This document shows positions 20,858 to 58,867 of a stretch of DNA of 64,000 nucleotides, one piece after another (position 1 is the first letter of the stretch; every line of letters starts with the position of its first letter). The stretch comes from Marinilabilia rubra (lineage in GTDB: Bacteria; Bacteroidota; Bacteroidia; Bacteroidales; Marinilabiliaceae). The translations under genes were made by a program, and so were the position numbers. The notes under the pieces are model-generated. The model ran no database searches and was not told the origin of the DNA. It saw only the letters and a program-made list of their open reading frames with translations. Where the stretch lies: the NCBI RefSeq assembly GCF_003121985.1, contig NZ_QEWP01000008.1, positions 1 to 64,000 of the forward strand, in the 5' to 3' direction.

Positions 20858-22855
20858 ATGAACGGACAGCAAAGAGTAATTATTGAGAATGTCAAACCGC
20901 AAATAAATTGTGGTGAATTCCCGGTTAAGCGTGTGGTGAATGATAAGGTGGAGGTGGAAGCTGATATCTTTTGCGATAGCCATGACGTTTTAAATGCAGA
21001 AATTTTATATAGGTGTCAGAATGAGAAAGAATGGCATTTGTCAGAAATGGAACACGATGTCAATGACCGATGGAGTGGCTGCTTCAAGGTTCCTGAATTG
21101 GGCAATTGCTTTTTTACTGTTAAAGGCTGGGCCGATCATTTTAAAACCTGGCACCGGGATATCCTCAAAAAAATTCATGCCGCTACCGATTATGCCTCCG
21201 ACTTGTTGGCCGGGGCCGAGATTATCAGGCAAACCATGTCGAAATACCAAGATGAATTATTACCTGAGGAGGCAGAGTTTCTAAAAGAAGCACTTGAAGA
21301 TTTAACTGCAGAAAACAAGCCTGCTTCGGAAAGGACTACCATCATTCTTAATAATGCCCTTTTCCATATAATGGTCAGATATCCGTTAAAGAATCATGCC
21401 ACAATATATAATAAGGAGCTGGAAGTTACCGTAGAACGGGAGCGTGCCAATTTCAGTTCATGGTATGAGGTATTTCCCCGTTCATTGGGGAAGGGTACTG
21501 AACAGCATGGTACATTTAAAGATGTCATAGATTTCTTGCCCTATGTGGCTGAAATGGGCTTCGATGTTTTGTATTTGCCCCCTATTCATCCTATTGGCAA
21601 AACGAAAAGAAAGGGCAGAAATAACAGTACTGAAGCACAGAAAGGGGATCCCGGATCTCCCTGGGCCATTGGTAGTGCAGACGGAGGGCACAAAGCCATC
21701 CATCCCGAACTGGGGAGTCTGGATGATTTCAGGAATTTGATCAGTGAAGCCGCCGAACATGGCATTGAAATAGCCATGGATGTTGCTTTTCAGTGCTCTC
21801 CAGATCACCCTTATGTGAAAGATCATCCTGAATGGTTCAAGCATCGTCCTGACGGGTCTTTGCAATATGCCGAAAATCCTCCCAAAAAATATGAAGATAT
21901 CTACCCCTTAAATTTTGAATCAGACGACTGGGAAAATCTTTGGGAAGAACTAAAAAGTGTTTTCGAATACTGGATCGATAAGGGTGTTAAGATCTTCAGA
22001 GTCGATAATCCGCATACCAAATCATTCCGGTTTTGGGCCTGGACTATCGGGGAGTTGAAAAAGAGCCATCCTGAAACCATTTTTCTCGCAGAGGCATTTA
22101 CCCGTCCAAAGGTTAAGTATCAACTGGCCAAAGGAGGTTTTACACAGTCATACACTTACTTTACATGGCGCAATACCAAATACGATATTACTACTTATTG
22201 TAATGAATTGACAAAAACCGAGGTTCGCGACTTTTTCAGACCCAACTTCTGGCCAAACACTCCTGATATTCTGCCCGAGTATTTGCAGGTTTCGCAACGT
22301 GTCGGGTTTATTCAAAGACTGGTTCTGGCCGCCACACTTAGCTCAAATTATGGCATTTATGGTCCGGCCTTCGAACTGATGGAAAATACTCCAACCGTTC
22401 CCGGAAAAGAGGAATATCTTAATTCGGAAAAGTATGAGTTAAAAGATTGGGACATCAATCATCCGGGCAGTTTAAAAAAGGTAATTACCAGAATAAATAA
22501 AATCAGACGTGAAAATAAGGCACTTCAGAATACTCATTCTTTAAAATTCCATGACATCAATAATGAAGCTCTGCTTTGTTACAGTAAGACTTCGGATGAT
22601 CTGAGCAGCATTATTTTGGTGGTTGTCAACCTCGATCCCCATTACACACATCATGGCTGGATTCACTTGCCCGTTAAAGATTTTGATATGGATAAGCACA
22701 CCTCCTATCAGGTGCATGATTTGCTGAGTGGGGCTTTCTATCTATGGAACGGTGAACACAATTATGTGGAGATTGATCCCGGTATAATGCCGGTTCACAT
22801 TTTTAAAGTAAGAAAGAGAGTCCGGACCGAGCAGGACTTCGATTACTTTATGTGA
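20858..22855 (+). CDS. glgE: Alpha-1,4-glucan:maltose-1-phosphate maltosyltransferase
   Basis: GlgE (GH13_3) adds maltosyl units from maltose-1-phosphate to the non-reducing end of an alpha-glucan. The N-terminal beta and helical domains (residues about 1-190) precede the barrel, which opens with YEVFPRSLGKG and contains LYLPPIHPIGKTKRKG and SPWAIGS, a family signature. The nucleophile is Asp383 in FRVDNPHTK and the acid/base is Glu412 in LAEAFTRP. Length (665 aa) is usual. It is the first gene of a three-gene operon with the TreS-maltokinase fusion and GlgB, which supply its substrate and branch its product. The start MNGQQRVII at 20858 fits known GlgE N-termini. Confidence 0.95.
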   Translation: MNGQQRVIIENVKPQINCGEFPVKRVVNDKVEVEADIFCDSHDVLNAEILYRCQNEKEWHLSEMEHDVNDRWSGCFKVPELGNCFFTVKGWADHFKTWHRDILKKIHAATDYASDLLAGAEIIRQTMSKYQDELLPEEAEFLKEALEDLTAENKPASERTTIILNNALFHIMVRYPLKNHATIYNKELEVTVERERANFSSWYEVFPRSLGKGTEQHGTFKDVIDFLPYVAEMGFDVLYLPPIHPIGKTKRKGRNNSTEAQKGDPGSPWAIGSADGGHKAIHPELGSLDDFRNLISEAAEHGIEIAMDVAFQCSPDHPYVKDHPEWFKHRPDGSLQYAENPPKKYEDIYPLNFESDDWENLWEELKSVFEYWIDKGVKIFRVDNPHTKSFRFWAWTIGELKKSHPETIFLAEAFTRPKVKYQLAKGGFTQSYTYFTWRNTKYDITTYCNELTKTEVRDFFRPNFWPNTPDILPEYLQVSQRVGFIQRLVLAATLSSNYGIYGPAFELMENTPTVPGKEEYLNSEKYELKDWDINHPGSLKKVITRINKIRRENKALQNTHSLKFHDINNEALLCYSKTSDDLSSIILVVVNLDPHYTHHGWIHLPVKDFDMDKHTSYQVHDLLSGAFYLWNGEHNYVEIDPGIMPVHIFKVRKRVRTEQDFDYFM

Positions 22856-22981: not shown

Positions 22982-25900
22982 ATGTCAGATAACAATACAA
23001 AGCAGTGGTATAAAGATGCAGTAATTTATCAAGCCCATGTAAGATCTTTTAAAGATAGTAATGGTGATGGTGTGGGCGACTTCAAAGGGATGGTCGAAAA
23101 GCTTGATTATCTTAAAGGCCTTGGTGTAAGTGCTGTGTGGATACTGCCCTTTTATAAGTCTCCACTAAAAGATGGAGGATATGATATCTCTGATTTCACC
23201 AGCATTCACGAGGATTATGGAAGTATGGCTGACTTTAAACGGTTCATTCAGGAAGCCCATAAAAGAGGTCTTCGGGTCATTACGGAGTTAGTGTTGAACC
23301 ATACATCTATTGAGCATAAGTGGTTTGAAAGAGCTCGTAATTCAAAGCCCGGAACTGTGTACCGCGATTTTTATGTTTGGAGTGATACCACCGAGAAATA
23401 CAAAGAAGCACGGATCATCTTTCAGGATTTTGAAATTTCCAACTGGACCTGGGATCCTGTAGCGGAGGCCTATTATTGGCATAGGTTTTACTCCCATCAA
23501 CCAGACTTGAATTTTGAAAATCCAAGTGTGCATAAGGCAATCATTAAAGTATTGGATTTTTGGTTTAAAACGGGGGTCGATGGCTTACGGTTGGATGCTG
23601 TTCCTTATTTGTATGAGGAAGAAGGAACCAATTGCGAAAATCTTCCGGCAACTCACCAGTTCCTGAAAAAGTTACGCAAACACATAGATGATAATTATGA
23701 TGATAAGATGCTTCTTGCCGAAGCCAACCAGTGGCCTGAAGATGCCGCAGAATATTTTGGGAAAGGGGATGAATGTCACATGGCATTTCATTTTCCGCTG
23801 ATGCCGAGACTTTATATGGCTCTGCGCATGGAAGACCGCTTTCCGCTTATTGATATTCTGGAGCAAACTCCGGATATCCCGGAAAACAGTCACTGGGCCA
23901 TTTTTCTCCGCAATCATGATGAATTAACCCTGGAAATGGTTTCTGATGAGGAAAGGGACTATATGTATAAGTCTTTTGCTCAGAATCCCAAGCAACGAAT
24001 CAACCTGGGTATCAGACGACGTCTGTCTCCACTGCTTGGCAACGACCGGAAAAACATAGAGATGTTGAATATCCTTCTTTTTTCATTGCCGGGTACACCT
24101 ATTGTCTATTATGGAGATGAGATCGGGATGGGCGATAACTTTTACCTGGGTGACCGTGATGGCGTAAGAACCCCAATGCAATGGTCGGCTGATAAGAATG
24201 CAGGTTTTTCAAGTGCCGAACCACAGCGATTGTTCCTTCCTGTTATTTTTAATCACGACTTTCACTACGAAAGCATCAATGTTGAGAATCAGGAGAAAAA
24301 TGCTTCATCATTGCTTTGGTGGATGCGTCGGGTTATTGCCAAGCGTAAACAATATCCCGCCTTCAGCAGGGGGGACATACAATTTGTTGACGGTAAAAAT
24401 TCCAAGATCCTCGCTTTTGTGAGGAAGTATGAAGAACAGATTATACTCGTGGTGGTCAATCTTTCAAGATATTCACAGCAGGTGCAACTTGATCTGAGCG
24501 ATTTTAAAGGATATGTTCCGACGGAAGTCTTCAGTCGCAATCAACTGGCCCCGATAGGGGAGAATCTTTACCATTTTCCGATGCAGTTCAAAAATTATTT
24601 CTGGTTCGAACTGCAGCATCCCGAGATTGAAAAAGAGAAAGAGTTGGCCTATAAGCAACAGCTCGAATTTACTACAGCTCAATGGAATCAGATAGCCAAT
24701 AATGTACCCGGGTCTCTCAATTCCTTTTTGGCTGAATTTGCAAAGAGAAGCCGTTGGTTCCGTGGCAAATCCAGAAAGATGAAGGAAGTGGTTGTACAGG
24801 ATGTGATACCTTTTAACACCGGGAAACTGAATTCTTATGTGTTGATACTGGAAGTTTTCTATATCGAAGGAAAGAATGAACGCTATTTTGTTCCTATTTC
24901 CATAGTTGTGGGAGAGGAACTTTACGAAATAAAGCACCAGTTCCCGGAAGCTGTTATTGCTCATCTTGAAATAGATGGGCAGGCTGCCCTTATTTATGGT
25001 GGCTCCTACAACCAAGTGGTTCGTGACCACTATCTGCGCTTAATTGTTCAGCGCGGAAAAATTAAAGGTATGAATGGAGAACTTGCCGGAATACCCGGGA
25101 AGAAGCTTAATAGCAGGTTGAAAAAAAGCGAGCTCCCTCTCAATTCCAAGGTTTTGGGTGTAGAGCAGTCCAATACCTCAGTGCTTTATGATAAACGCTT
25201 TTTCTTTAAAATGTACCGTTGTCCTGAGGAGGGAAGTAATCCCGAGTTGGATATTATTAAGGCTCTTACGGAAAATACGACATTCCGAAACTTCCCTGTT
25301 TATGCTGGAGCTCTGGAGTACAGACGGGATGAAGACAAGATGGAAGTAGGTCTTCTGGTTGATTTTCTGCAGAATGAAAGTAATGCCTGGGAATTTACTC
25401 AGAACGGTATTGAGGATTACTTTGACCGCCTGAAGCGACAACAGCCCGATTTACAGGGGTTTATTGGTGATCGAGAGGGGAATGCAAAAATAAGGGAGAG
25501 GGAAAACGAACTCTTCGATCCCTTCTTTATTGAAATGATAAGCCTTTTGGGAAAACGAACTGCCGAGATGCATATGGCATTGGCATCTATAAAAGAGAAA
25601 GATTTTAAAGAAGAGGCTTTTTCTCTACTTTATCAGAAGTCTCTTTATCAGTCGTTCCGCACGCTTATCAAGCGGACCATTGAGGAAATGAGGTCGGCTT
25701 ATGGCGGACTTGAGGATGATCAGAAAGCATTGCTGGATGATATTTTCGACAATGAATCGCTTCTGTTGTCAACCATAAAGCAAACACTGGAACAGAAAAA
25801 GATCCATACCTCCAAGATCCGTATCCATGGTGATTATCACCTGGGACAGGTATTATATACCGGAAAAGATTTTCTGATTATCGATTTTGAGGGTGAACCA

Positions 25901-26284
25901 ACCCGGTCACTTACTGCAAGAAGTCTTAAGTATTGTCCGTTTAAAGATGTTGCCGGAATGCTGCGTTCGTTCCACTACGCCATTTATATGGGGCTACTCG
26001 ACTATAATGAAAAGCAACCGGGTTATTACGATTACCTGGAGCCTTGGCAGGAGGTATGGTACCGGAAAATTGAGGATACCTTCCTGGGTAATTACCTTGA
26101 AACGGCCAAAGGAGCTTCATTTATCCCGGAAGAAAAACGACAGCTTGACGATCTGCTTTCGGTTTATACCATCGAAAAAGCGGTGTATGAAGCCGATTAT
26201 GAGTTGAACAACCGTCCCGATTGGTTGCATATCCCCCTTAACGGGCTGAAGAAGATATTGCAAAATTTACTTGAGAAAGATTAA
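22982..26284 (+). CDS. treS: Trehalose synthase fused to maltokinase (TreS-Mak)
   Basis: A two-domain, 1100-residue enzyme. Residues about 1-560 form GH13_16 trehalose synthase, which interconverts trehalose and maltose: WYKDAVIYQAHVRSF at the start, nucleophile Asp205 (LRLDAVPY), acid/base Glu247 (LAEANQWP) and Asp313 (RNHDELT). Residues about 590-1100 are a maltokinase (Pep2) with the kinase-like catalytic loop HGDYHLGQVL (Asp951) and IDFEGEP, ending in ADYELNNRPDWLHIPL, typical of TreS-Mak fusions. Together the domains turn trehalose into maltose-1-phosphate for the upstream-encoded GlgE. It lies 126 bp after glgE and 70 bp before glgB, all on one strand. Fusion of TreS with Mak is a known arrangement that channels maltose. 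Confidence 0.96.
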   Translation: MSDNNTKQWYKDAVIYQAHVRSFKDSNGDGVGDFKGMVEKLDYLKGLGVSAVWILPFYKSPLKDGGYDISDFTSIHEDYGSMADFKRFIQEAHKRGLRVITELVLNHTSIEHKWFERARNSKPGTVYRDFYVWSDTTEKYKEARIIFQDFEISNWTWDPVAEAYYWHRFYSHQPDLNFENPSVHKAIIKVLDFWFKTGVDGLRLDAVPYLYEEEGTNCENLPATHQFLKKLRKHIDDNYDDKMLLAEANQWPEDAAEYFGKGDECHMAFHFPLMPRLYMALRMEDRFPLIDILEQTPDIPENSHWAIFLRNHDELTLEMVSDEERDYMYKSFAQNPKQRINLGIRRRLSPLLGNDRKNIEMLNILLFSLPGTPIVYYGDEIGMGDNFYLGDRDGVRTPMQWSADKNAGFSSAEPQRLFLPVIFNHDFHYESINVENQEKNASSLLWWMRRVIAKRKQYPAFSRGDIQFVDGKNSKILAFVRKYEEQIILVVVNLSRYSQQVQLDLSDFKGYVPTEVFSRNQLAPIGENLYHFPMQFKNYFWFELQHPEIEKEKELAYKQQLEFTTAQWNQIANNVPGSLNSFLAEFAKRSRWFRGKSRKMKEVVVQDVIPFNTGKLNSYVLILEVFYIEGKNERYFVPISIVVGEELYEIKHQFPEAVIAHLEIDGQAALIYGGSYNQVVRDHYLRLIVQRGKIKGMNGELAGIPGKKLNSRLKKSELPLNSKVLGVEQSNTSVLYDKRFFFKMYRCPEEGSNPELDIIKALTENTTFRNFPVYAGALEYRRDEDKMEVGLLVDFLQNESNAWEFTQNGIEDYFDRLKRQQPDLQGFIGDREGNAKIRERENELFDPFFIEMISLLGKRTAEMHMALASIKEKDFKEEAFSLLYQKSLYQSFRTLIKRTIEEMRSAYGGLEDDQKALLDDIFDNESLLLSTIKQTLEQKKIHTSKIRIHGDYHLGQVLYTGKDFLIIDFEGEPTRSLTARSLKYCPFKDVAGMLRSFHYAIYMGLLDYNEKQPGYYDYLEPWQEVWYRKIEDTFLGNYLETAKGASFIPEEKRQLDDLLSVYTIEKAVYEADYELNNRPDWLHIPLNGLKKILQNLLEKD

Positions 26285-26354
26285 GTCTGATTAATTCATG
26301 AATTATTCAGGTAAGATAAGCGCATATCTGTTTACAATAAAAAATGATATTGCT

Positions 26355-28406
26355 ATGGCTGAGAAATCTAAAGCGACAGGTAAAAATAAAAAGACTGCTT
26401 CAACAAGTCGCAAAACAGCGGCTACAAAAAAGAAAGCAGCAACTAAAGCAACCCCGAAAAAAGCAGCAAAGGCTCCTGTGTCAGTGAAGGACAGACCTGC
26501 GGTTTGGGGAGTGCAGGATTTTATAACCGATTTCGACATCTACTTATTCAGAGAGGGAAAGCACTTTTCACTTCATAAAAAACTGGGCGCTCATATTATC
26601 GAGCAGGATGGTGTTGCCGGAACTTTTTTTGCTGTATGGGCACCCAATGCGAAACTTGTATCGGTAATTGGAAATTTTAACGGATGGGACAGAGCATCAC
26701 ACCCCTTGTCCAAACGCAACGATGATTCGGGTATATGGGAGGGGTTTATCCCCGGCATACTGAAAGGTGAAGTGTACAAATACTTCCTTCAGTCGATTTT
26801 TAATAATTACAGTGTGGAAAAAGCCGACCCTGTCTCAGCCTTTAATGAGCATCCGCCCCGCACTGCCTCAGTTGTATGGGAGCACAGTCATGATTGGAAA
26901 GACAAGCAGTGGATGAAGAAAAGAAAAGACTTCAATTCCCTGGAAAGTCCAATGTCGGTTTATGAGGTGCATCTGGAGTCATGGCGACGTTCCCTGGAGG
27001 AGGACTTGAGGCCTCTTACCTATCTGGAGCTGGCTGATCAGCTTACGAAGTACGTAAAAGAAATGGGGTATACTCACTTGGAGTTAATGCCGGTTACAGA
27101 GTATCCGTTTTCCGGATCGTGGGGGTATCAGGTTACAGGATTTTTTGCCCCTACCAGCCGATTTGGAACACCTGATGAGTTTAAGCAATTAGTGGATATT
27201 CTCCACCAGAATGATATTGGTGTGATAATGGACTGGGTGCCTTCGCACTTCCCGGGAGATCAGCATGGACTTCATTTTTTCGATGGAACTTATTTGTACG
27301 AGCATGAAGATCCAAGACAAGGGTATCATCCCGACTGGAGTAGTTACATCTTTAATTACGGGCGAAATGAGATTCGAAACTTCCTTATCAGTAGTGCTCA
27401 CAGCTGGATGGAATACTATCACATTGATGGCCTGAGGGTAGATGCCGTGGCTTCAATGCTGTATCTTGATTATTCCCGCAAAGACGGAGAGTGGATTCCC
27501 AATGAACATGGAGGGAGGGAAAACCTCCATGCCATAAAATTTCTGCGGGATTTTAATGAGTCATTGTATTCATCTTTCCCGGATATTCAAACCATTGCCG
27601 AAGAATCAACTGCCTGGCCTATGGTCACAAAGCCCGTCTACACCGGAGGGTTGGGCTTTGGCATGAAATGGAACATGGGATGGATGCACGATACGCTTGG
27701 TTATATGACGCATGACCCGGTTTACCGAAGTTATCATCACAACCAGATGACTTTTAGTATTATGTATGCTTTTAACGAGAATTTCAAGTTGGCCCTTTCA
27801 CATGACGAGGTGGTGCACGGCAAAAAGAGTCTGATTAATAAAATGCCTGGTGATGACTGGCAGAAATTTGCTAACCTCAGGGTTTTGTTCAGCTATATGT
27901 ATGGCCATCCCGGCAAGAAGCTCCATTTTATGGGCATGGAACTTGGGCAGTGGGCAGAATGGAACTACGAAAGCAGTCTCGACTGGCATCTTTTGGATTC
28001 TGATATGCACAGGGCTTTTCATCACTTCATGAAAGAACTTAACAGCATTTACAGACAATATCCGGCTCTTTATGAGGCAGATTTCTCCCCGGAAGGATTT
28101 GAATGGTTAGATGCCAATGATTCAGAAAATTCCATTCTTGGATTTATGCGATACGATAAGGAAAAGAAACAAGAAGTACTGGTAATGGCCAATTTTACTC
28201 CTGAGCCAAGATACAATTACCGTGTAGGAGTGCCGCATGATACACATTGGAGTGAAATTTTCAACAGTGACGCCCGGCAATATGGAGGAAGTGGTATGGG
28301 TAATTTTGGAGGCGTGAATGCCAATCCGGTCCCTTATCATGAAAAGGATCAGTCTATTAATATTCTTCTGCCACCACTTGCTGTTGTGATGTTTGCTGCT
28401 GAGTAA
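26355..28406 (+). CDS. glgB: 1,4-alpha-glucan branching enzyme with a Lys/Ala-rich N-terminal tail
   Basis: The GH13 branching enzyme introduces alpha-1,6 branches. A CBM48 domain (about residues 70-160, FAVWAPNAKLVSVIGNFNGWDR) precedes the barrel, with nucleophile Asp363 (LRVDAVASM), acid/base Glu416 (IAEESTAWP) and LSHDEVVHGKKSL. The start at 26355 (MAEKSKATGK) is preferred; the frame is open 19 codons further up but without support. Residues 1-38 are a low-complexity tail rich in Lys, Ala and Thr (KKTASTSRKTAATKKKAATK) resembling histone H1-like tails. Such a basic tail is unusual on GlgB; it might bind nucleic acid, anionic polymer or membrane. It is the last gene of the glgE operon and completes the route to branched glucan. 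Confidence 0.94.
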   Translation: MAEKSKATGKNKKTASTSRKTAATKKKAATKATPKKAAKAPVSVKDRPAVWGVQDFITDFDIYLFREGKHFSLHKKLGAHIIEQDGVAGTFFAVWAPNAKLVSVIGNFNGWDRASHPLSKRNDDSGIWEGFIPGILKGEVYKYFLQSIFNNYSVEKADPVSAFNEHPPRTASVVWEHSHDWKDKQWMKKRKDFNSLESPMSVYEVHLESWRRSLEEDLRPLTYLELADQLTKYVKEMGYTHLELMPVTEYPFSGSWGYQVTGFFAPTSRFGTPDEFKQLVDILHQNDIGVIMDWVPSHFPGDQHGLHFFDGTYLYEHEDPRQGYHPDWSSYIFNYGRNEIRNFLISSAHSWMEYYHIDGLRVDAVASMLYLDYSRKDGEWIPNEHGGRENLHAIKFLRDFNESLYSSFPDIQTIAEESTAWPMVTKPVYTGGLGFGMKWNMGWMHDTLGYMTHDPVYRSYHHNQMTFSIMYAFNENFKLALSHDEVVHGKKSLINKMPGDDWQKFANLRVLFSYMYGHPGKKLHFMGMELGQWAEWNYESSLDWHLLDSDMHRAFHHFMKELNSIYRQYPALYEADFSPEGFEWLDANDSENSILGFMRYDKEKKQEVLVMANFTPEPRYNYRVGVPHDTHWSEIFNSDARQYGGSGMGNFGGVNANPVPYHEKDQSINILLPPLAVVMFAAE

Positions 28407-28487
28407 AAGGAGAGCCGGAATTAATTAAAATAATGGATGATGCTGGAGTTTTTTCTTTTTTAAAGGATTTATCATTAAGAGAAGCAG

Positions 28488-28519
28488 AGACGCAGAAGGA
28501 AGATTAAAAAACTGCGTCT
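28488..28519. repeat. Inverted-repeat hairpin between glgB and the rhodanese gene
   Basis: AGACGCAG (28488-28495) pairs with CTGCGTCT (28512-28519), within AAGCAGAGACGCAGAAGG ... CTGCGTCTTAGCGTCTTTGCG. The A/G-rich CGCAGA words look like a common dispersed repeat. It has no T tract and is not a convincing terminator. Confidence 0.5.
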
Positions 28520-28596
28520 TAGCGTCTTTGCGAGAGTCTTAAAAACAATGAATGAAAGCCCGGACGAAAATAAATGCATAAAAAACTAATGAAACT

Positions 28597-29904
28597 ATGG
28601 CGCAACCAATAAAAGAGATTACCACTGAATCATTAAAATCATTACTCAACAATCCGGAAGCCAGGATCATTGATGTCAGACCAGTAGATGCATACAACGG
28701 CTGGGAACTCCAGGGAGAAAAAAGAGGTGGTCATATCCCGGGAGCTAAAAGTTTGCCCGTTAAATGGACGCAATACATGGATTGGATAGAAATGGTACGC
28801 CATAAAGAAATTGAACCCCATCACCGGATTATCCTCTACGGCTATCCTTCGGATGATGTTAAACAAGTTGTGGGTCAGTTTGAAAAAGCGGGCTTTAATA
28901 ATCTGGAAGTTTATCCTCACTTTTTCAGCGATTGGCTGGAGGATGAGGTGTTACCGCTGACTAAGCTTCCGCGTTTTCGGCATTTAGTGTCTTCGTCGTG
29001 GGTTAAGGAACTCATCGAGGGAAAAAGTCCTTTGCATTATCACAATGATAAATATGTTGTGGTGCATGCCCATTACCGCAACCGGGATGCCTACCTTGGT
29101 GGCCATATTCCCGGTGCCATCGATTTGGATACCAACGACATTGAGTCAACAGACACATGGAATCGCCGTTCACCGGATGAGCTGAAAAAAGCTTTTGAAG
29201 CCCATGGTATTACTGCGGATACGACGGTGGTGATGTATGGTAAATTTATGTTTCCGGATAATGAAGATGAGTTTCCCGGAAGTGCTGCCGGAGACTTAGG
29301 AGCCATACGATGTGCCTTTATCTTAATGTATGCCGGCGTAAAGGATGTTCGCGTGTTAAATGGTGGATTTCAGTCCTGGCAGGATGCAGGTTACGAAATT
29401 TCAAAAACCGATGAACCCCGGCATCCCGTTTCCGATTTTGGCGTAAAAATCCCTGCAAATCCACAGTTGGCGGTTGATACGCCCGAGGCCAAGACGATGA
29501 TTGCTTCTCCGGATTCAGAGTTGGTATGTGTCAGGAGTTGGCCTGAGTACTTAGGAGAGGTAAGTGGCTACAATTACATTGAGAAGAAGGGGCGCATTCC
29601 CGGTGCTGTTTTTGCCGATTGCGGTTCGGATGCTTACCATATGGAAAATTACCGGAATTTTGATCATACCACACGTGAAGCACAGGAGATTGAGAAAATC
29701 TGGCGGGAAAGTGGCATTACCCCCGAAAAACACCTGGCCTTTTATTGCGGAACCGGTTGGCGGGGCAGCGAAGCCTGGTTCAACGCCTGGTTGATGGGCT
29801 ATCCCAAAGTATCTGTTTATGATGGAGGCTGGTTTGAATGGAGTAATGATCCTCAAAACCCCTTTGAGACAGGTTTCCCTGAAGAGATCGTAAGTCAGGA
29901 TTAA
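28597..29904 (+). CDS. eanB: Triple-rhodanese sulfurtransferase, probable ergothioneine synthase EanB
   Basis: 435 residues in three rhodanese domains (about 1-125, 130-275, 290-425), each with the GHIPGA-type or GRIPGA motif. Only the third has a catalytic cysteine: FYCGTGWRGSE, Cys384. In the first two, the active-site loop reads LYGYPSDD and MYGKFMFP, without Cys. EanB of green sulfur bacteria is a multi-rhodanese protein with one essential persulfide Cys near the C-terminus; it inserts sulfur into hercynine without oxygen. The next gene encodes an EgtD-family methyltransferase, which would supply hercynine, so the pair is read as anaerobic ergothioneine biosynthesis. Without that neighbour it would be annotated as a thiosulfate sulfurtransferase, which remains the alternative. 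Confidence 0.78.
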   Translation: MAQPIKEITTESLKSLLNNPEARIIDVRPVDAYNGWELQGEKRGGHIPGAKSLPVKWTQYMDWIEMVRHKEIEPHHRIILYGYPSDDVKQVVGQFEKAGFNNLEVYPHFFSDWLEDEVLPLTKLPRFRHLVSSSWVKELIEGKSPLHYHNDKYVVVHAHYRNRDAYLGGHIPGAIDLDTNDIESTDTWNRRSPDELKKAFEAHGITADTTVVMYGKFMFPDNEDEFPGSAAGDLGAIRCAFILMYAGVKDVRVLNGGFQSWQDAGYEISKTDEPRHPVSDFGVKIPANPQLAVDTPEAKTMIASPDSELVCVRSWPEYLGEVSGYNYIEKKGRIPGAVFADCGSDAYHMENYRNFDHTTREAQEIEKIWRESGITPEKHLAFYCGTGWRGSEAWFNAWLMGYPKVSVYDGGWFEWSNDPQNPFETGFPEEIVSQD

Positions 29905-29973
29905 TGCTAACCCTTTATGGGATTAACATCTTAAACCTCACAATTGTAAATATCAACCTTAAAAACACCAGCC

Positions 29974-30975
29974 ATGCAACATCAGGATGCGTTCATTGAT
30001 ATCGGATATGAACCACAAATAAAAGATTACCTGGAAACAGAGTCGGAGCAGGAAGTGGCAGACTTAATTTTATCGGGGCTGAAGGCTACATCCAGACATA
30101 TCTCCAGCCGGTTTTTCTATGATGAAAAAGGGTCGCTTTTATTTGAGGACATTACCAGGCTACCCGAGTATTATCCCACCAGAACTGAAAAAAGTATTAT
30201 TCGGGAGGTTGCTCCTGAAATTGTTGAAAAACTGGATGGAAGTCAGCTCATAGAACTTGGCAGTGGCGATTGTTCAAAGATTTCCCTGGTTTTGAAGGCG
30301 GTTCCCGAAAAAAAGATGTGGTCTGTGGAATATCTGCCGGTAGATGTGAGCCGATGGTCCATCATAAAGTCTGCTCAAATACTTACATCCCGATTTCCCG
30401 GTCTCACGGTAAAGGGCGTATTGGCTGATTTTTTGAAGCATCTGAGATTTCCTGCCACAGATAAACCCCGGATGATCTGTTTTTTTGGAAGTACTCTGGG
30501 GAATTTTGACCGGCCTGTGGCCCATCAGTTTTTGCTCAATGTAGCATCAATGATGGATGCCGGTGATCATCTTTTGCTGGGTCTGGACATGGTGAAGAAT
30601 CCGAAAGTGCTTGAAGCGGCTTACAATGATAAAGAAGGTGTTACCGAGGCCTTTAATAAAAATATCTTAAATGCTGTCAACCACCAGATAGGAACCAATT
30701 TCAACCCGGAGATGTTTTTACACCGTGCTTTCTTTAATGCAAAGGACAAAAGAATTGAGATGCACCTGGAAGCCCTGCAGGATATGAAAGTTTCCAGTCC
30801 TTTTACGGAGACTTACCTGGCTTTAAAAAAGGGTGAGATGATTCACACCGAAAATTCTTATAAATTTTCTCGTGAGGATATATCAGAAATTTCAGCTTTT
30901 ACCGGATTAAAGGTAAAAGAGGTTTACTCCGACGACCGGGGTTGGTTCTCACTGACTTGCTTTCAGAAAACCTGA
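29974..30975 (+). CDS. eanA: L-histidine N-alpha-methyltransferase (EgtD/EanA family)
   Basis: 333 residues of the EgtD domain family, which trimethylates histidine to hercynine using SAM. Visible motifs are SSRFFYDEKGSLLFEDI with LPEYYPTRTE (residues 61-71), the SAM-binding ELGSGDCSK (94-102), CFFGSTLGNF with Asn177, EAAYND (Tyr217) and HTENSYKF with Glu293 and Ser295. In mycobacterial EgtD the equivalent Tyr, Asn, Glu and Ser hold the histidine, so histidine specificity looks preserved. No EgtB (iron-dependent sulfoxide synthase) gene is nearby; instead the partner is the rhodanese gene 69 bp upstream. Cytoplasmic. The length is normal for the family. Confidence 0.87.
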   Translation: MQHQDAFIDIGYEPQIKDYLETESEQEVADLILSGLKATSRHISSRFFYDEKGSLLFEDITRLPEYYPTRTEKSIIREVAPEIVEKLDGSQLIELGSGDCSKISLVLKAVPEKKMWSVEYLPVDVSRWSIIKSAQILTSRFPGLTVKGVLADFLKHLRFPATDKPRMICFFGSTLGNFDRPVAHQFLLNVASMMDAGDHLLLGLDMVKNPKVLEAAYNDKEGVTEAFNKNILNAVNHQIGTNFNPEMFLHRAFFNAKDKRIEMHLEALQDMKVSSPFTETYLALKKGEMIHTENSYKFSREDISEISAFTGLKVKEVYSDDRGWFSLTCFQKT

Positions 30976-31197
30976 GCCCCTGGTGGAACATTGGGTTAAG
31001 CAATAGTTCGTTAAATAAAAACCAAATACACAGGTCATGACGCAGCGTTATATTATCAGGCTGCCCGGGTTTCGTTGGTGTGTGTCCAACCCTCTTTACT
31101 GATTGCTTGAAATCCCTGATAGTCGGGATGTCAGACTATGCTTGACTTGACACTGGGAATCAGTAAAAAAACAATATTCATAAAAAAGGATTATGAT

Positions 31198-31776
31198 ATG
31201 GATTTAGCAATTAGTTTGATCTATGGATCGGTTCGCAGTAGCCGCAGGGGAATACAGGTGGCAAAATATCTGGATCAGAAGTTAAAAGAAAGAGAGATAA
31301 AGGTTCATTTTATCGACCCCTTACAATATCCGCTCCCTATGCTTGATAAAATGTATAACGAATATCCAAAAGGAGAGGCTCCCGGTAATATGGAAAAACT
31401 GGGTGGTTTTCTTAAGGAATCGGATGGGTTTTTACTGGTTACAGGAGAGTATAATCACAGTATCCCACCGGCTTTGAAGAATTTGCTGGATCATTTTCAA
31501 AAAGAATATCTCTTCAAACCCTCAGCCATTGCGTCTTATTCCAAAAGTTCATTCGGAGGAGTCAGAGCTGCTGTTCACTTAAGAGTGATATTAGCAGAAT
31601 TGGGTACACCCTCCATTTCCTCGATATTGCCATTTCCGCAAGTAGGTGATTTGTTTGATGAAAATCTGTTGCCTCGAAATGAAAAAACTGAACCTGCCAC
31701 GAAGAGATTTTTGGATGAGTTTGTTTGGTATGCTGAAGCTTTAAAAACAAAGCGATCAAGGGGTATTCCCTTTTAA
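31198..31776 (+). CDS. NAD(P)H-dependent FMN reductase / quinone reductase family protein
   Basis: The start at 31198 (MDLAISLIYGSVRSSR) follows an AAAAAGGATTATGAT leader; the frame is open 20 codons further upstream without support. The 192-residue protein has the flavodoxin-like fold of the ArsH/ChrR/azoreductase group: FMN-phosphate loop YGSVRSSRRG near the N-terminus, DGFLLVTGEYNHSIPPALKNLLDHF in the middle (the GEYNxSxPxxLKNxLD signature) and SKSSFGGVRAA. It reduces flavins, quinones or metals with NAD(P)H. The substrate cannot be assigned. It is followed by a strong terminator. Confidence 0.9.
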   Translation: MDLAISLIYGSVRSSRRGIQVAKYLDQKLKEREIKVHFIDPLQYPLPMLDKMYNEYPKGEAPGNMEKLGGFLKESDGFLLVTGEYNHSIPPALKNLLDHFQKEYLFKPSAIASYSKSSFGGVRAAVHLRVILAELGTPSISSILPFPQVGDLFDENLLPRNEKTEPATKRFLDEFVWYAEALKTKRSRGIPF

Positions 31777-57616: not shown

Positions 57617-58867
57617 ATGAAAAAGAATCAATACTCTCCCGAAAGCCTCATGATGTCTTACGGATACAAAGCTTCAGACCACCAAGGGGCGGTCAAGTGT
57701 CCTTTGTTTCAGACTTCCACTTTTGCTTTTCACTCTGCCTCCGAGGGCAAAGCTTTTTTTGAGTTGGCTTATGGATTGAGAGAACCTGAAGCCGGTGAAG
57801 AGATGGGAATGATTTACAGCCGGGTAAATAATCCAAACCTGGAGCTGGCAGAAAAAAGGCTTGCTCTTTGGGATAAAGCTGATGGTGCTGCTTTTTTCGC
57901 TTCAGGTATGGCAGCGATATCTACTATGATGTTCACGTTTTTACGTCCCAATGATATATTGCTGTTTGGCTCTCCCGTTTACGGTGGTACGGATCATTTT
58001 ATTCATCATGTTTTACCTGATTTCGGAATACGAACGTTAATGTTTACCTCCCTGGATTCTGAAAAGGAAATCCTTCAGCGGCTTGAAGATACTTTCCCCG
58101 GAGAGCAGCCATCTTTAATTTATATTGAAACTCCTGGTAATCCAACAAATAATCTCATTGATATTGAGATGTGTGCGCGATTGCGGAATGAGTTTGTGTC
58201 TGGCAGAAAAGATTGTTTGCTGGCTGTTGATAATACTTTTTTGGGGCCTGTTTTTCAGAGGCCACTCGAACATGGTGCTGACCTTGTGGTCTATTCAGCA
58301 ACCAAATTTATTAGTGGACACAGCGATGTTATTGCCGGAGCCTGTGCAGGGAGAAATGAAACGATTGGTCGGCTCAAAGCAATGAGAACATTTTTAGGCA
58401 GCATGTTGGATCCTCATTCCTGTTGGCTGGTAATGCGAAGTCTTGAAACTTTACAAATTAGGATGGAAAGGCAAGATGCAAGTGCCCGGAAAGTAGCGGA
58501 ATATGTGGCGCAGCATCCTAAGGTTGAGAGTGTTCATTTTTTGGGATATCTGAGAGACGACGATCCACAAAAACAAATCTTTAAAAAGCAGTGTCTTTCA
58601 TCCGGATCAATGATTTCTTTTAATATAAAAGGGGGAGAGAAGGAAGCATTCCGATTTTTAGATAACCTGACGTTGTTTAAGTTAGCAGTGAGTCTTGGCT
58701 CAACAGAAAGCCTGGCTGAACATCCTGCTACCATGACCCATGTGGATGTTTCGGAGGAAGACCGTCAAAAACTGGGGATTTTGCCCAATTTGGTCAGATT
58801 AAGTATTGGACTTGAAGATCCGGAGGACTTAATTCAGGCTGTTGAATCTGCTTTCGGAAAAGTTTGA
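57617..58867 (+). CDS. PLP-dependent trans-sulfuration enzyme (cystathionine gamma-synthase/lyase family)
   Basis: 416 residues of the Cys/Met metabolism PLP family. The PLP lysine is in VYSATKFISGHSD, with DNTFLGPVFQRPLEHGAD before it, plus FASGMAAISTMMF and SLGSTESLAEHPATMTH near the C-terminus. Members make or break cystathionine or eliminate methanethiol from methionine. In the loop before the active site the sequence is SPVYGGTD, with Gly where methionine gamma-lyases usually have Cys, so that activity is less likely. The substrate cannot be fixed from sequence alone. The metA gene 4.4 kb downstream belongs to the same pathway but is not cotranscribed. Confidence 0.88.
   Translation: MKKNQYSPESLMMSYGYKASDHQGAVKCPLFQTSTFAFHSASEGKAFFELAYGLREPEAGEEMGMIYSRVNNPNLELAEKRLALWDKADGAAFFASGMAAISTMMFTFLRPNDILLFGSPVYGGTDHFIHHVLPDFGIRTLMFTSLDSEKEILQRLEDTFPGEQPSLIYIETPGNPTNNLIDIEMCARLRNEFVSGRKDCLLAVDNTFLGPVFQRPLEHGADLVVYSATKFISGHSDVIAGACAGRNETIGRLKAMRTFLGSMLDPHSCWLVMRSLETLQIRMERQDASARKVAEYVAQHPKVESVHFLGYLRDDDPQKQIFKKQCLSSGSMISFNIKGGEKEAFRFLDNLTLFKLAVSLGSTESLAEHPATMTHVDVSEEDRQKLGILPNLVRLSIGLEDPEDLIQAVESAFGKV

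Follow-up and report, generated by a model that had tools for sequence, protein, structure and literature searches.

A predicted EanB-EanA gene pair for oxygen-independent ergothioneine synthesis in Marinilabilia rubra and its distribution in Bacteroidota

Gene organization of the locus and its genomic setting

The window (the whole 64-kb stretch of Marinilabilia rubra DNA that was analysed) contains two reading frames that are intact, lie on the same (+) strand, and are separated by 69 bp, as the first-pass annotation had described. According to Pfam, the first frame contains three rhodanese stretches, which confirms the triple-rhodanese architecture noticed earlier, and the second a single Methyltransf_33 domain. 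The match scores of the two products rule out chance. The features are as follows.

22982-28406, upstream of eanB: trehalose synthase-maltokinase (TIGR02456/TIGR02457) followed by GlgB
28597-29904, + strand: eanB, predicted ergothioneine synthase, 435 aa, three rhodanese domains, predicted orthologue of Chlorobium limicola EanB
29905-29973, + strand: eanB/eanA spacer, 69 bp
29974-30975, + strand: eanA, predicted histidine N-alpha-trimethyltransferase (EgtD family, class T1), 333 aa, TIGR03438 and PF10017
31198-31776, + strand: NAD(P)H-dependent FMN reductase-like gene, possible accessory, PF03358 (103.9 bits)

When scanned, the eanB/eanA spacer contained no terminator-like site and one promoter-like match, on the - strand, and the two genes are probably co-transcribed. 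The start of the FMN reductase-like gene at 31198 was deduced from its homologues, the ORF list placing it at 31138. The 222-bp gap between eanA and this start holds promoter-like and terminator-like matches; because matches around the gap are no commoner than in shuffles, transcription of the flavin reductase together with eanA is uncertain.

Directly upstream of the trehalose synthase-maltokinase gene is a 665-aa ORF (20858-22855) that had no NCBIfam match at 1e-30 and might, as a guess, encode a GlgE maltosyltransferase. An imperfect short inverted repeat lies between glgB and eanB at 28484-28540 (GCAGAGACGCAGA ... CTGCGTC) and is perhaps an intergenic repeat element; two of its longer pieces are single-copy in the window, and a 9-base piece has one further copy on the opposite strand at 27485. 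Also in the window are a metA-like gene, which runs from 63291 to the window edge, and a gene of the cystathionine gamma-synthase family (57617-58867); nothing connects either to EanB. The GC contents of EanB (46.6%), EanA (42.8%), GlgB (44.0%), and TreS (42.5%), set against 40.7% for the whole window, give no clear signal of horizontal transfer of the pair into the host; EanB is patchy within the genus, yet a genus-mate has the same gene order.

The lack of a nearby EgtB gene, part of the first-pass annotation, was upheld genome-wide as far as searched in the host assembly (5.38 Mb in 59 contigs, 99.99% complete), in which the best match to the EgtB profile TIGR03440 reached 75.7 bits, where the cut-off is 360. 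PF03781 gave five matches in four ORFs of this genome, and none of the four possesses a second EgtB-type domain or the EgtB motif HxxxHxE. An EgtB hidden among these genes was ruled out, as they have the FGE-sulfatase domain only, apart from BACON domains in one of them, show lipoprotein-like starts by eye, and fall far under the TIGR03440 cut-off. Adjacent EanA and EanB genes thus occur in a genome that has no EgtB above cut-off. A genome-wide search for an ergothioneine importer of the kind that neighbours EanB elsewhere gave a best match of 68.4 bits, to the permease part only, so that no such importer was found in the host.

Assignment of EanB and EanA

The best solved relatives of the M. 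rubra rhodanese protein are the C. limicola EanB entries (667.6 bits for 6ktv), followed as the next group by YnjE at 309 bits. Aligning 28597-29904 with EanB, the check proposed in the first-pass annotation, gave 65.2% identity to the C. limicola enzyme over 422 residues, versus 40.2% over 413 residues to Escherichia coli YnjE. Y325, C384, T386, and R389 correspond to C. limicola Tyr353, Cys412, Thr414, and Arg417. Because every one of the 116 rows of our alignment, YnjE included, has these same four residues, they are not diagnostic of EanB and were dropped as proof of the assignment. The earlier identification of Cys384 as the sole cysteine needed a correction: it is the only one in the active-site loop (CGTGWRG) and aligns with Cys412, but the protein has four (239, 311, 342, and 384), three of which fall in the last rhodanese stretch (296-417).

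Greater discrimination came from 164 positions that are kept in at least 95% of 75 EanA-associated EanBs, the M. rubra protein being excluded from their definition. YnjE deviates at 61 of these positions (10 of the 61 being gaps), and M. rubra EanB retains all 61; its own deviations from the 164 number three (243, 275, and 402). In a quick tree of the 116 rows, in which support falls below 80 at 40 of the 113 inner branches, M. rubra EanB pairs with the EanB of locus L025 (support 96) and lies inside a 46-row set that includes C. limicola EanB (SH-aLRT 96), while a very long branch sets YnjE apart from the 115 other rows. By bits, identity, and tree, the full-length protein is nearer to C. limicola EanB than to other triple-rhodanese proteins. 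The case for EanB rests on this overall orthology, the 61 specific positions, and the linked EanA rather than on the catalytic residues, and assignment of 28597-29904 as a predicted EanB orthologue is well supported.

The second protein is the sole PF10017 match in the host genome (343.5 bits) and scores 346.5 bits with TIGR03438, above the EgtD equivalog cut-off of 290.9. Comparison of 29974-30975 with EgtD, also proposed earlier, showed identity at 13 of 13 active-site positions of the Mycobacterium smegmatis enzyme (Y49, F57, Y66, D124, F153, G172, T174, N177, Y217, T224, M263, E293, and S295 in M. rubra EanA). The histidine-binding residues picked out in the first-pass annotation were correctly placed, with Y66, N177, Y217, E293, and S295 equivalent to EgtD Tyr56, Asn166, Tyr206, Glu282, and Ser284. 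Two of the 13 are Gly161 and Met252 of EgtD. The other 11 are named for Mycobacterium tuberculosis EgtD in the available part of the source (PMC8593015). M. rubra EanA is 47% identical to the EanA of L011 and only 54% identical to that of the genus-mate L025.

Distribution, gene partners, and neighbours in Bacteroidota

At E ≤1e-60, and with M. rubra itself counted at every rank, EanB was found in 18 of 395 genomes of the phylum and 37 of 295 of the order. At the lower ranks it occurred in 6 of the 25 family members, a number that takes in the genus, and in 2 of the 5 members of the genus. Carriers include Thermophagus xiamenensis, Labilibacter marinus, Carboxylicivirga, Saccharicrinis aurantiacus, and Salinimicrobium, together with the genus-mate Marinilabilia sp. 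UBA5340 (L025, a MAG; Marinilabiliaceae per NCBI), whose locus contains L163, a locus from a genome of the same genus. Genome contigs yielded at least 558 confirmed relatives, and 80 of their loci were kept for comparison. Of these 80, 58 contain an EanA-like gene, in every case on the same strand as EanB and downstream of or fused to it. The idea that a two-gene locus of this type is a rarity in Bacteroidota did not survive these counts, with EanB in 36 of 294 order genomes other than M. rubra; the EanB route is widespread in the phylum, and the M. rubra locus is not rare.

Half of the 22 loci lacking EanA (11) extend for 1.9-10 kb downstream of EanB with no EanA in that DNA. Six others stop within 1.5 kb of EanB, one of them belonging to a Salinimicrobium MAG, and the remaining five come from Salinimicrobium isolates. 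All six Salinimicrobium genomes (Flavobacteriaceae; L027, L029, L032, L033, L034, and L042) encode EanA elsewhere; we found no paper in the open-licence literature that treats Salinimicrobium and ergothioneine together. Among the phylum's EanB homologues, families f25 and f37 (L014-L024, 11 loci) had no whole EanA in the 4.3-kb loci searched, and the eight that were aligned read SGYHYI around Tyr325 instead of SGYNYI. An ORF on the - strand upstream of one of these homologues (L014:2850-3584) has an end that matches EanA residues 200-333 (47%, 2e-35) and a front that is AhpD-like by eye. This partial EanA looks like a deletion remnant or an assembly join and is unlikely to be a working methyltransferase; our EanA alignment took only matches of more than 200 aligned residues and thereby left it out.

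The 58 EanA-like proteins fall into two classes. T1, to which M. rubra EanA belongs, has 30 members, among them L085, which duplicates L009; T2 (e.g., L038, L041, and L030) has the other 28. The T2 proteins have Asn (27) or Ser (1) at Thr163 and Ser at Met252 (27, with one uncovered). Both classes always keep Tyr56, Asn166, and Tyr206, and they keep Glu282 and Ser284 where these are covered. In the EanA tree, T1 and T2 form the two sides of one branch (support 100), while the EanB tree, a quick tree with weak deep forks, requires at least 13 changes between them. This pattern suggests that EanBs have repeatedly exchanged their EanA partner.

Five of the 58 loci, all from MAGs, encode EanB and EanA as a single ORF of 676-776 codons.

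L026, 10001-12250: EanB-EanA fusion
L047, 829-3132: EanB-EanA fusion
L050, 10001-12331: EanB-EanA fusion
L054, 8731-10761: EanB-EanA fusion, cut near the contig end
L069, 6922-9171: EanB-EanA fusion, apart from the other four in the EanB tree

Among the matches listed in our search of the open-licence literature, we found no report of natural EanB-EanA fusions; in the available text of PMC13209761, "fusion" refers to added tags or cited titles.

Several other genes recur near EanB. Eight other loci (L025, L037, L039, L041, L059, L062, L075, and L082) have homologues of the M. rubra flavin reductase (54-71% identity) no more than six genes from EanB; these homologues directly follow EanA in L025 and L037, sit between EanB and EanA in L059 and L082, and are on the opposite strand in L075. 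The flavin reductase is possibly an accessory to EanB and EanA. A fused permease/substrate-binding transporter is located downstream in six T2 loci (L046, L049, L051, L052, L055, and L061), and a 288-aa piece of one occurs in the T1 locus L095. The betaine-type ABC transporter of L049 (3712-5268), a relative of ergothioneine importers, has as its closest solved chain 8dp6 (296 bits), presumably the ergothioneine transporter domain of Helicobacter pylori; its match to Streptococcus pneumoniae EgtUC (7txl) was 162 bits, and several choline/betaine-type proteins and sensors scored higher, up to 198. In 24 loci (e.g., L085:11301-11582), a gene no more than seven places from EanB encodes a small DUF427 protein (PF04248). 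We also noted a pyridine-nucleotide disulfide oxidoreductase between EanB and a T2 EanA in L046 (11308-12684), L048, L055, and L067. One guess is that the oxidoreductase could reduce the disulfide of ergothioneine or of a thiol.

Proposed pathway and comparison with known systems

EanB orthology, the EanA active-site residues, gene order, and the absence of EgtB agree with one another, and they support the EanB-EanA assignment of the first-pass annotation. The order EanB then EanA, also cited there, recurs in three loci that cluster with C. limicola EanB (L010, L011, and L013). The two genes very probably make up a pathway of the Chlorobium EanA/EanB type, by which M. rubra would produce ergothioneine independently of O2. 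By analogy with C. limicola EanB, from which the chemistry is drawn, EanA would form hercynine by trimethylating L-histidine at its alpha-amine, consuming three SAM. Cys384 of EanB would take up sulfane sulfur, the donor being polysulfide or some other persulfide, and Tyr325 would serve as acid/base on the hercynine imidazole, both protonating and deprotonating it. With Thr386 orienting the substrate and Arg389 stabilizing the intermediate, the sulfur would move from Cys384 to hercynine C2, giving ergothioneine in a single step. The roles of Tyr353, Cys412, Thr414, and Arg417 in C. limicola EanB are described in the available parts of two sources (PMC9103826, PMC10903977), in which the choice between a nucleophilic and a carbene path is debated.

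Some observations run against this pathway assignment, namely the 22 of 80 loci without EanA, the f25/f37 loci without a whole EanA, and the 54% EanA identity to the genus-mate. The rhodanese protein could instead be a YnjE-like general sulfurtransferase acting, for example, on molybdopterin or thiosulfate, with the methyltransferase merely making hercynine. YnjE is indeed the next solved relative at 309 bits and shares the triple-rhodanese layout and the four catalytic residues, but we judge a general sulfurtransferase highly improbable given the 65% identity to EanB versus 40% to YnjE, the EanB-like residues at all 61 separating positions, the very long YnjE branch, and an EanA-like gene that accompanies EanB in 58 of 80 loci and is fused to it in five. 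The pair might otherwise yield some related thiohistidine, or a compound with another methylation, since T2 EanAs, which differ at Thr163 (Asn or Ser) and Met252 (Ser), stand beside EanB elsewhere and partner specificity could vary. M. rubra EanA, however, is of class T1, matches EgtD at 13 of 13 active-site positions, and exceeds the EgtD equivalog cut-off, which makes a different product extremely improbable here.

A silent or marginal pathway, a patchy trait without a significant ergothioneine pool, is compatible with the enzyme assignments and disputes physiology only. Of the four other members of the genus one carries EanB, and of the 24 others in the family, again with the genus counted in, five do. 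The available portion of one study (PMC6282198) gives no sign that ergothioneine was a major thiol among the Chlorobiaceae it examined, so the presence of the genes need not mean abundant ergothioneine. On the other side, both M. rubra frames are intact and keep their key residues. Moreover, EanB, EanA, and flavin reductase stand in the same order in L025 even though their identities to the M. rubra proteins are down to 73%, 54%, and 69%, which argues for lasting selection. We consider a silent or marginal pathway unlikely.

The description of the locus as anaerobic holds for the chemistry, which is predicted to be O2-independent, but not necessarily for the host. The M. rubra genome encodes a CtaD-like haem-copper oxidase subunit I (667.9 bits, just below the cut-off of 670.75) and carries cytochrome bd genes, and these terminal-oxidase genes suggest that the host may respire oxygen. 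Confinement to anoxic life is how hosts of such loci are usually described, and we did not take it as a defining trait. Within the order, PF00115, which takes in haem-copper oxidases and related NO reductases, was found at E ≤0.001 in 28 of 36 other EanB-bearing genomes versus 104 of the 258 that lack EanB (Fisher p = 2.5e-5), and strong matches alone gave 22 of 36 versus 74 of 258 (p = 2.2e-4), comparisons that ignore kinship, genome size, and completeness. Salinibacter ruber is an aerobe. An oxygen-using EanB host is therefore not new in itself, because this species had already been reported as an ergothioneine producer with the anaerobic gene in the available part of PMC11993508; the accessible text of another paper gives EanB hosts as mostly anaerobes (PMC9516567). 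As a tentative view that we hold to be doubtful as a whole, the EanB route in Bacteroidota might be a standard ergothioneine module of bacteria able to respire oxygen rather than an anaerobe relic. Such a module would be tied to persulfide or polysulfide disposal and to redox protection across oxic-anoxic change, would have a dedicated flavin reductase, and would have been refitted repeatedly with a second EanA class only distantly related to the first, and would have given rise to bifunctional fusions that hand hercynine on directly.

Ergothioneine is a protectant against reactive oxygen, and the EanB route makes it without oxygen; its role there is described as unsettled in the parts available of PMC9103826 and PMC9516567. 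Bacteroidota with named strains offer organisms in which to study that role, and the natural EanB-EanA fusions are ready candidates for bifunctional enzymes. The pathway is already known from green sulfur bacteria, and many relatives of M. rubra carry it. The value thus lies less in the M. rubra locus than in the comparison, i.e., the spread in Bacteroidota, the frequent terminal-oxidase genes, the fusions, and the partner exchange.

The closest known system is C. limicola EanA/EanB (Clim_1148/Clim_1149; EanB structures PDB 6ktv and 6h98), with which M. rubra shares a 65% identical EanB, the same catalytic residues, and an adjoining EgtD-family methyltransferase. For EanA, our comparison with the Chlorobium type uses the L011 protein (47%) in place of the C. 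limicola sequence itself. Unlike C. limicola, a phototrophic sulfur bacterium, M. rubra has terminal oxidases and a flavin-reductase gene after eanA. With the aerobic EgtB/EgtD pathway it shares the first enzyme family, EgtD, but has no EgtB above cut-off. To our knowledge, YnjE is not known as an ergothioneine synthase. It resembles M. rubra EanB in its three rhodanese domains, CGTGWR loop, and equivalents of Tyr353, Cys412, Thr414, and Arg417, and differs in its annotation as a molybdopterin synthase sulfurtransferase, its 40% identity, and its departure, by substitution or gap, from 61 of the 164 conserved positions. Finally, EanAN from a "Bacteroidales bacterium" has been combined with an EanB homologue from Anaerobacillus for ergothioneine synthesis in Bacillus licheniformis, according to the available part of the report (PMC11767532). 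By description, the only basis of this comparison, EanAN resembles M. rubra EanA in its Bacteroidales origin and its length of 333 in the paper's figure, and it differs in having been partnered with the Anaerobacillus EanB homologue (PMC11767532).
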